A DNA stretch of 64,000 bases, taken from Kibdelosporangium persicum. Lineage in GTDB: Bacteria; Actinomycetota; Actinomycetes; Mycobacteriales; Pseudonocardiaceae. Under the pieces are notes generated by a model. The model searched no databases. It saw only the letters and a list, made by a program, of their open reading frames with translations, and was not told where the DNA came from. Shown piece after piece: positions 10,504-22,922 of this stretch (position 1 is its first letter; each line of letters opens with the position of its first letter). A program made the position numbers and the translations under genes. The stretch covers positions 124,001 to 188,000 of the forward strand of contig NZ_JAAATY010000002.1 of NCBI RefSeq assembly GCF_013280595.1, read 5' to 3'.

Positions 10504-11130
10504 ATGATCGCCAAAAATGCCTTACGGACCCTGCTGCTCGTCGTCGCTCTGCTGCTCGGAATGGTTGTGGTGGCGTCGGCGACCCCGCCAGGCATTCCCA
10601 GCGCGACCACCGCGCGCAGTCAGCTCAACGCGCTGACCGTCGCGCCCGACGGGACCATGACCGGCTACAGCCGTGACCTGTTCCCGCACTGGACGACCGT
10701 TTCCGGCAGCTGCAACACCAGAGAGCAAGTGCTGAAGCGGGACGGCACCAACGTCGTCGTCGACTCGTCCTGCGCCGCCACCTCGGGTGGTTGGTACAGC
10801 CCGTACGACGGCGCCACCTGGTCGGCCGCGTCCGACGTGGACATCGACCACATCATCCCGCTCGCCAACGCGTGGCGGACCGGCGCGCGGTCGTGGACGA
10901 CGTCGAAACGACAGCAGTTCGCCAACGACCTGTCCGGCCCGCAGCTGATCGCGGTGACCGACGACGTCAACCAGGCCAAGGGCGACAAGTCACCCGACGC
11001 GTGGAAGCCGCCGCTCACGTCCTACTGGTGCACCTACGCCCGGATGTGGATCGGCTCGAAGTACAAGTGGACGCTGACGGTGAACTCCGCGGAGAAGTCA
11101 GCGCTCAACTCGATGCTCGACCGCTGCTAG
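10504..11130 (+). CDS. Secreted HNH-family nuclease (DUF1524/GmrSD C-terminal type)
   Basis: An exported endonuclease-like protein of 208 residues. MIAKNALRTLLLVVALLLGM begins a clear Sec signal peptide ending near ASA-TPP. The catalytic region near residues 115-165 has DVDIDHIIPLANAWRTGARS and FANDLSGPQLIAVTDDVNQA, followed by KGDKSPDAWKPP: the DHxxPL...N...K pattern of HNH/DUF1524 nucleases. Four cysteines could form disulfides outside the cell. GGAGGT lies 3 nt before the ATG. Its TAG shares the palindrome CTAG with the stop of the convergent DUF3151 gene. Likely role: extracellular DNA degradation or nutrient scavenging. Confidence 0.85.
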   Translation: MIAKNALRTLLLVVALLLGMVVVASATPPGIPSATTARSQLNALTVAPDGTMTGYSRDLFPHWTTVSGSCNTREQVLKRDGTNVVVDSSCAATSGGWYSPYDGATWSAASDVDIDHIIPLANAWRTGARSWTTSKRQQFANDLSGPQLIAVTDDVNQAKGDKSPDAWKPPLTSYWCTYARMWIGSKYKWTLTVNSAEKSALNSMLDRC

Positions 11131-21712: not shown

Positions 21713-22354
21713 GTGAACCTGGTTGGCTGGCTGGCGGAGAACGGTCCGCTGATGGTCTGGCTGATCGTGCTCAGCTTCGTCTTCATCGAATGCGCGTTTG
21801 TCGTCGGTTTGTTCCTGCCGGGTGATTCCCTGCTTTTCACCGCCGGACTGGTGCTGGCCCAGCACGGCTCGCACGACGTCGAAGCGTGGGCGCTGTCCGT
21901 CACCGCGACGGTCGTCGCCGTGGCCGGCAACCAGCTCGGCTACCACATCGGCCGCAAAGCGGGAACGTCCCTGACCGGGCGGCTGGGTGGCCGGGTGCTC
22001 ACCGTGGAGCGGCTCGGCAGGGCCCGTGACTTCCTCGACCGCCGCGGCTTCTGGGCGATCGTGCTGGCCCGCTGGCTCCCGTGGGTCCGCACGCTGGCGC
22101 CGATGATCGCCGGTGCCGCCGCGATGAACCCCCGCCGGTACATGGTCGCGACCACGGTCGGCGCGGTGCTGTGGGTGCCGACGCTCGTGCTGGTCGGGTA
22201 CTACGCCGCCGGCCTGCTCACGCAGTACCCGTGGGTGGTGACCACGGCCGTCGTGGTCGGCGTCGCGTTCTTCGTGGTGGGGACCGTGTGGGGCATCTGG
22301 CGCTACCGCCAGGAGATGCGCAGGCCCGCCGAGCTCGTCCCCGTGGTCGACTAG
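21713..22354 (+). CDS. DedA-family (SNARE-associated) membrane protein
   Basis: A 213-residue integral membrane protein with about five hydrophobic segments. The DedA core is visible: VVGLFLPGDSLLFTAGLVLA, GNQLGYHIGRKAG, and RWLPWVRTLAPMIAGAAAMN with its essential arginines, then PRRYMVATTVGAVLW. DedA proteins act in lipid transport (undecaprenyl-phosphate or phospholipid scrambling) and envelope homeostasis. Matches Rv0364 near fba in M. tuberculosis. Its TAG stop lies in the CTAG target-site copy at the left end of the MITE-like element. Confidence 0.92.
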   Translation: MNLVGWLAENGPLMVWLIVLSFVFIECAFVVGLFLPGDSLLFTAGLVLAQHGSHDVEAWALSVTATVVAVAGNQLGYHIGRKAGTSLTGRLGGRVLTVERLGRARDFLDRRGFWAIVLARWLPWVRTLAPMIAGAAAMNPRRYMVATTVGAVLWVPTLVLVGYYAAGLLTQYPWVVTTAVVVGVAFFVVGTVWGIWRYRQEMRRPAELVPVVD

Positions 22355-22518
22355 GTCGTGTTTCGAATGTCCCGGTCGATGAGAGTCGGGATCGGGGCGG
22401 TTCCTGGCGTCGCCGCGGGATCGCCGCGAATACTGGTTGTCTTTGGGCGGTCCCGCGGTGGCGTCAGGGGCCGCATCCGGCCCGGCTATCGCGATCGGGC
22501 ATTTGAAACACGACCTAG
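22351..22518. mobile_element. MITE-like element (160 bp core) flanked by CTAG target duplications
   Basis: The core 22355-22514 has terminal inverted repeats: left GGTCGTGTTTCGAATG..., right (read inward on the other strand) GGTCGTGTTTCAAATG...; the first 11 nt are identical and similarity extends about 24 nt with one gap. CTAG flanks both ends (22351-22354 and 22515-22518). There is no room for a transposase, so it is non-autonomous. CTAG/TA targets and this type of end suggest mobilisation by an IS5-like transposase (inference). Both flanking genes use the duplicated CTAG for their stop codons. Confidence 0.75.
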
Positions 22519-22922
22519 GGCTTCTCCGCCCAGAGCACCAGCTGGATGCCGTCCGGGTCGCGCAGGGCGACCACGGACTTGCCCGCGCTCTGCTCCTCGG
22601 TGATCGGCGAGTACATCACGCCGTGTTCGTCGAGCCGGTCGGTCCACTCGGTCAGGCAGCCCTCGTCCGGCACGGAGAACGACAGGTGGTCCAGCCCGGG
22701 TCTCTTCTCGTCGAACACGTTGCCCGCCGCGTACGGGTGCTGGACCAGGGTGAGCGCGAAACCGTCGCCTGGGCCCCGCAGGAACACCTTGCGGACACCG
22801 AGGGCGTCCTCGTCGAGCGTGCCGACCACGCTGAACCCGAGGACCCGCTCGTACCAGGGGACACTGCGGTCCACGTCGGTCACGGTCAGCGCGATGTGAT
22901 GCACGCCGCTCAACGTGGGCAT
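22515..22922 (-). CDS. VOC-family (glyoxalase/dioxygenase-like) protein
   Basis: A 135-residue two-module VOC protein. SGVHHIALTVTDVDRSVPWY supplies the first metal His, GLDHLSFSVPD the second-module His, and VVALRDPDGIQLVLWAE the terminal Glu-containing strand. This fits a glyoxalase I/extradiol-dioxygenase-superfamily metal protein with unknown substrate. ATG at 22922 follows AAGGACGGA. The stop codon is provided by the right-hand CTAG copy of the MITE-like element. Confidence 0.9.
   Translation of the reverse strand: MPTLSGVHHIALTVTDVDRSVPWYERVLGFSVVGTLDEDALGVRKVFLRGPGDGFALTLVQHPYAAGNVFDEKRPGLDHLSFSVPDEGCLTEWTDRLDEHGVMYSPITEEQSAGKSVVALRDPDGIQLVLWAEKP

Follow-up and report, generated by a model that had tools for sequence, protein, structure and literature searches.

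A MITE of Kibdelosporangium persicum that lands in shared stop codons, completes them with its own end bases and is predicted to form a one-strand RNA hairpin

The stretch of DNA analysed here, referred to as the window, comprises 64,000 nucleotides of the Kibdelosporangium persicum genome (contig NZ_JAAATY010000002.1, positions 124,001 to 188,000). It includes two convergent genes: one for a 213-aa dedA-like membrane protein on the plus strand (21713-22354), which matches the Pfam family VTT_dom, and a 135-aa VOC/glyoxalase gene on the minus strand (22515-22922), which matches Pfam Glyoxalase. Where the two genes meet, positions 22351-22518 read CTAG-core-CTAG, with 22-nt ends that are 91% complementary. 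The left inverted end, with its flanking CTA, spans 22351-22372 (plus strand), and the right inverted end, with its flanking TAG, spans 22497-22518 (minus strand) and ends in GACC in the window copy, where the class consensus has GGCC. As delimited by a flank census of 60 copies (see below), the element itself is a 162-bp core (GG...CC; 22354-22515) enclosed by the left (22352-22353) and right (22516-22517) copies of a TA target duplication, its plus strand being the hairpin strand with G.U pairs. The core is devoid of a transposase gene, and the open reading frames that cross it are chance ones. A size within 70-300 bp, the lack of coding capacity, inverted ends, 60 copies with both flanks, a target duplication and empty sites in relatives identify the element as a MITE, in agreement with the initial annotation of this DNA, which had described it as MITE-like.

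The same annotation had placed the insertion exactly in a stop common to dedA and the VOC gene and had judged it neutral to both proteins, and both statements hold. Each gene keeps a TAG stop, dedA at 22352-22354 (plus strand) and the VOC gene at 22515-22517 (minus strand), and the flank census, together with the empty sites in relatives, shows that the TA of each codon belongs to the target and the G to the element. Thus, each stop codon in the window consists of two host bases and a third base supplied by the element.

A search for the empty site recovered the uninserted dedA/VOC junction in three relatives. In Actinocrispum wychmicini (L244), the junction contains the 12 letters GACTAGGGCTTC, with one base further upstream differing from the longer empty-site string predicted earlier. 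The empty junctions GTCTAGGGCTTC and GCCTAGGGCTTC belong to a record titled Rhodococcus rhodnii NRRL B-16535 (L246) and to Kibdelosporangium philippinense (L248), which have the same layout with a different last dedA codon, the dedA frame of K. philippinense being shifted upstream. The dedA and VOC genes of L246 (JOAA01000011.1) are close to those of Kibdelosporangium, and its strain label may be wrong. In Kibdelosporangium aridum (L247), the element sits inverted at this VOC stop, next to the shorter dedA end also present in L246, and we read this insertion as independent. K. banguiense carries other sequence between dedA and the VOC gene, and its VOC stop is again CTAG. An uninserted convergent stop is also present within the window, at 11127-11130, where the CTAG is indeed shared by two genes as first annotated; one of them is a DUF3151 gene, and the other, previously labelled an HNH nuclease, instead matches GmrSD_C (10504-11130), the C-terminal domain of GmrSD restriction endonucleases.

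The ends of the element recur throughout the K. persicum assembly (10.35 Mb, 89 contigs), as a check for other copies of the terminal repeats revealed: they match 125 places, compared with 8 for a reversed control pattern, and at least 60 copies are complete with both flanks. This set comprises copies scoring above 75 with a core below 190, and leaves aside further low-scoring or nested pairs, copies cut by contig ends, and L120, L128 and L171; since several contigs start or end in element copies, the true copy number is higher. By size, 32 copies measure 187 nt, 20 measure 162, four measure 121, and four are off by one or two bases, with identical copies making up 14 of the 20 in the 162 class and 16 of the 32 in the 187 class. 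One of the loci left aside (L120:1468-1555; G000:C44) is an internally shortened MITE copy of 88 bp flanked by TTA and TAG.

The junctions of the 60 copies read CTA/TAG in 39 cases, TTA/TAG in eight, CTA/TAA in seven and TTA/TAA in one, with another flank in five. A 4-bp CTAG duplication, as originally proposed, cannot give TTA/TAG or CTA/TAA junctions and is thereby ruled out; the duplication is the 2-bp TA within a YTAR site, which alone accounts for all four of these junction types, and the element in the window accordingly runs from 22354 to 22515, beginning with G and ending with C. It follows that the two genes did not each receive a CTAG of their own by duplication, as had been suggested; instead, the terminal G and C of the element complete both TAG stops. 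With these terminal bases, insertion into a CTAG target restores that sequence at both junctions, and a TAG or TAA stop therefore stays a stop on either strand. The safest of our conclusions is that this MITE has IS5-type ends and that its terminal bases render an insertion into a stop silent. This is a clear case of a transposable element whose own end bases complete the stop codons at its landing site while leaving both proteins unchanged.

The copies are concentrated at such stops. Sites were classified with a home-made codon-usage gene finder trained on the K. persicum genome, and 623 unoccupied YTAR sites in 1.5 Mb of its sequence (the window and 72 convenience-sampled 20-kb stretches) served as background. 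In 15 of the 60 copies, the target TA belongs to two stops at once; a further 26 copies sit at a single stop, three of them within another gene, 18 are in spacers and one is in a gene, while the background consists of eight shared stops, 41 one-stop convergent sites, 79 other one-stop sites, 42 convergent and 366 other spacer sites, and 87 sites in genes. Shared convergent stops are hence used more often by the element (15/60) than unoccupied sites would predict (8/623). The enrichment at overlapping CTAG stops, which the initial annotation had named as a check, is also seen with CTAG sites alone (10/39 copies against 5/245 background sites; Fisher p 1.4e-6). By extrapolation, about 19% of the shared convergent YTAR stops are occupied, compared with about 0.6% of non-convergent spacer sites. 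As for the genes concerned, all 20 tested proteins among the 30 at these 15 shared stops match Pfam, the ten outside the test being mostly short, and two of the 30 are weakly supported as genes (score 16 at 51 aa, score 14 at 102 aa).

The bias extends to other members of the genus. In seven genus mates, 61 loci were taken from 98 matches, which include reverse-strand repeats, and ten of the 61 were dropped for want of a recognisable end pair; nine of the remaining 51 copies lie in shared stops, compared with 0/139 for the background CTAG sites of G003 and G007. In G003, a 939-bp IS5-type element is flanked by YTA and TAR in the 21 copies examined (L210, L215, L219, L359-L376) and its transposase match contains one TGA, which may mark a frameshift site. 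For a weak control, we took IS copies of 939-1325 bp that use YTAR as well (24/26 in G003); these are at stops in 2/26 cases, against 9/16 MITEs in G003; we do not lean on this comparison, in which two of the 28 loci tried lacked an end pair, the flanks were 700 bp for 18 loci and many had no gene call, and the flanking bases look different by eye from those of the MITEs.

Could the stop preference be nothing but a sequence preference of the transposase that happens to be met at gene ends? The element favours GNCTAGNC, with G at -3 and C at +4 preferred and A or T at -4 avoided, within G+C-rich flanks, and it does so in intergenic insertions as well. Flank features alone lower the negative log-likelihood of the site model from 113.6 to 86.8, as much as gene context alone does (86.7), and this flank preference accounts for part of the shared-stop enrichment. 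Context nevertheless adds to the near flanks (likelihood ratio 30.2, p 1.4e-5), and a stratified permutation gave 14.0 expected convergent-stop insertions against 23 observed, none of 5000 permutations being as high. Even with near-flank sequence taken into account, the use of shared convergent stops thus exceeds what their number predicts, and we consider it unlikely that sequence preference is the only cause.

A second possibility is that insertion is random among YTAR sites and that selection leaves copies only where they do no harm, between convergent genes or at stops, which was the essence of the original suggestion that convergent CTAG stops are safe harbours. The rarity of copies inside genes (1/60, against 87/623 in the background) fits such a filter, and repeats and IS elements enriched between convergent genes of pneumococcus have been read as tolerated there by the authors of PMC3049150. 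Moreover, copies from the genus mates lie at stops in 20/32 cases with intact junctions and in 2/19 with degraded junctions, a split suggesting that the junctions of old copies may survive only under coding constraint. However, convergent spacers off stops, which should be equally safe, hold only one of the 60 copies compared with 42/623 background sites, while convergent stops of one or both genes hold 31/60 compared with 49/623 (Fisher p 2.6e-6). Copies identical to the commonest sequence, which are probably recent, are as stop-bound as the others or more so, touching a stop in 15/16 cases in the 187-bp class (others 9/16) and in 9/14 in the 162-bp class (others 4/6). The enrichment on which the suggestion was built is therefore real, but since off-stop convergent spacers are not enriched, safety alone is insufficient as its whole reason, and we assign pure selection after random insertion a low probability. 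That insertion itself favours gene ends is the likely alternative.

The body of the element is a hairpin of about 68 bp. A single hairpin running the length of the element is predicted for plus-strand RNA of 22351-22518 (-138.7 kcal/mol, z -16.4), and the minus strand is less stable (-92.7 kcal/mol, z -9.7), because G.U pairs of the plus strand become A.C on the other. The same strand is the more stable one in 71 of 71 distinct elements from eight genomes, which were oriented by sequence and not by fold, with a mean difference of 39 kcal/mol. In an alignment (A1) of 28 of 61 short elements, selected to be less than 97% identical, drawn from seven genomes and with one more left out by hand, 98.1% of the 68 pairs are formed. 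Two-sided changes occur in 24/68 pairs and fill 109 cells, compared with 25.3 in shuffled alignments (0/500 as high), a control that ignores relatedness. There are 290 G.U cells, one A.C cell and 35 other mismatched cells, and the wobbles are nearly confined to one strand. Conservation is about 96% in the arms and 82-84% in the ends, which indicates that different end sets sit on one body. A covariance-model search of Rfam with one copy (window 22200-22700) gave no match at E values up to 1. The idea that the G.U pairs are spaced so as to break up the DNA palindrome was rejected, as the longest Watson-Crick run is 17.4 against 17.8 expected and falls below expectation in 22/50 cases.

Given such a fold, the element might be kept by positive selection as a portable two-way terminator at packed convergent genes that lack room for one. 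Both strands indeed fold strongly, the facing gene is within 60 bp in 11 of 15 one-stop convergent insertions, and the SPRITE repeats of pneumococcus offer a proposed parallel (PMC3049150). The background one-stop convergent CTAG sites are just as tight, though, with 12/16 within 60 bp, and the element shows no preferred orientation relative to the gene that stops there (19 plus, 20 minus), which makes this explanation improbable in our view. The same orientation counts dispose of the notion that the hairpin strand is set by the gene it ends, and they argue against the plus-strand hairpin as a simple 3' end of a given gene. That the one-strand G.U pairs are a mere mutational footprint, left by strand-biased C-to-T change in a palindrome or by arm-to-arm template switching, is likewise doubtful: the copies do stem from a few masters, which makes their changes non-independent, and template switching could also yield two-sided changes, but a footprint fits poorly with the excess of two-sided cells and the near absence of A.C, nor with G.U pairs held across genera (columns 60-113, 32/34), which template switching would erase. 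What we prefer is selection on the plus-strand RNA.

A plausible source of the transposition activity lies in a genus mate. The genome G007 contains a 1.04-kb IS (L192) with CTAGGCCGTGTTTCA at both ends. The MITE consensus opens with the same letters at its right end, whereas one of them is different at its left end and in the window copy; IS and MITE also share the YTAR/CTAG target. The protein encoded by L192 matches DDE_Tnp_1 (56.2 bits, cut-off 23) and, partially and below cut-off, DUF4096. The element's ends hence match an IS of the IS5 family, represented by L192. The initial annotation had asked for an IS5-like transposase with the same ends, which is thus present in a genus mate, but no IS with the element's ends was seen in the own assembly among the 100 of 125 end-match places listed. 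A protein search of the own genome recovered one intact relative (L190, identical to L061; DUF4096 104.6 bits), whose ends are GCGCGTGTTTCA, and three partial matches. One of the latter, L201:1489-1695 (G000:C39), is a 207-bp internal-deletion derivative of the IS5-type L190, flanked by CTA and TAG, and constitutes a second small non-autonomous element. Other transposases were rejected as partners: DDE_5 and 460-aa DDE_Tnp_1 hits, which we take to be IS701-like and IS1380-like, respectively, lacked paired ends of this kind at the loci that were scanned, and the copy beside L076 is simply a neighbouring MITE.

Similar hairpins occur elsewhere in the family. A model of the hairpin matches 54 of 200 Pseudonocardiaceae genomes, eight of them in this genus, in 16 of 46 genera (up to 14 candidates were scored per genome). 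At 22 loci, one from each of 22 of the 46 matching genomes outside the genus, G.U pairs lie mainly on one strand (4-16 against 0-2), and the sites comprise four shared stops, six single stops, six spacers and six positions inside genes predicted by the finder trained on the own genome. In a 34-sequence alignment (A2), 41/64 pairs carry two-sided changes by raw count, with 332 G.U and 27 A.C cells. G.U occurs at fixed stem positions across genera (columns 28-146, 40-135, 50-123 and 60-113; 29-32/34), and where G.U is absent at 60-113 the pair is always A-U, which might mean that the wobble has a role of its own.

In the class, where the hits are weaker, a second model matched 17 of 394 genomes at 1e-6, two of them in Pseudonocardiaceae, and the 25 class loci outside that family lie at single stops (9), in spacers (13) or in genes (3), with none at a shared stop. 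Structure models were used to find the family and class loci, and each was oriented by whichever strand carried more G.U, so that nothing but the magnitude of the asymmetry carries information there; it is absent from L418 and L427 (4 against 4). Preference for shared stops is shown for the genus and suggestive in the family, and beyond it none of the 25 loci is in a shared stop. Homology of the class-level matches is less certain and rests on structure and short motifs.

The explanation that we regard as probable combines these elements: a high-copy, TA-duplicating, non-autonomous element with cores of 121, 162 and 187 bp inserts at YTAR, mostly CTAG, sites and is probably moved in trans by an IS5-family DDE transposase. 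Its preference for gene ends would arise mainly at insertion, helped by the removal of harmful insertions, and the one-strand G.U hairpin would reflect selection on the plus-strand RNA. Most likely, this RNA would form an extended duplex within read-through transcripts and act on transcript ends, possibly through termination or through RNase III or exonuclease processing. A broader picture, that actinomycetes harbour a class-wide set of mobile RNA hairpins selected on one strand, with swapped IS5-type ends and genus-level delivery to shared convergent stops, perhaps because transposition senses the ends of transcription or translation, is tentative, and we would give it less than even confidence. 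The measured shared-stop enrichment makes testable how bacterial transposons reach gene ends, while the one-strand G.U hairpin, whose model has hits in 16 of 46 sampled genera of the family and which gave no Rfam match for the window copy, suggests that many gene ends of these soil bacteria carry an RNA structure yet to be characterised.

In the open-licence literature, no earlier description of the element family was found; the accessible text of a MITE review (PMC10969869) does not describe it, and PMC3610266, as far as its accessible text goes, is unrelated. Closest to it are IS5-family IS of actinomycetes, with which it has ends and the YTAR/CTAG target in common through L192 in the genus mate, whereas the element itself has no transposase, its duplication resolves to TA and its body is a conserved hairpin. 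The group concerned is presumably IS427. Examples are ISMysh01 and its relatives in PMC9241763, where CTAG direct repeats are reported for an IS5-family element in mycobacteria.

Among non-autonomous repeats, NEMIS/Correia, ERIC, YPAL and RUP elements are similar in size and ends and, for RUP, in TA insertion. ERIC and Correia elements insert at TA. YPAL is without TA termini (PMC2229807). GTAG REP elements frequently supply TAG stops to flanking ORFs from their termini, lie mostly between convergent or tandem genes and have G.T pairing that was argued to reflect RNA function (PMC3733652); REPs, however, are 20-40 bp long and often tied to RAYT, whereas the element here measures about 160-190 nt and has inverted ends and a TA duplication, so that size and ends exclude a REP element. 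SPRITE of Streptococcus pneumoniae lies near gene 3' ends, is most enriched between convergent genes and was proposed as a terminator, but it is an 18-bp duplex with a U-rich tract whose target duplication could not be established (PMC3049150), unlike the TA duplication seen here. Robust RNA structures have also been proposed for bacterial MITEs (PMC3733652), and from these hairpin MITEs the present element differs by its full-length single stem, two-sided changes, conserved arms with varying ends, and exact use of shared stops.
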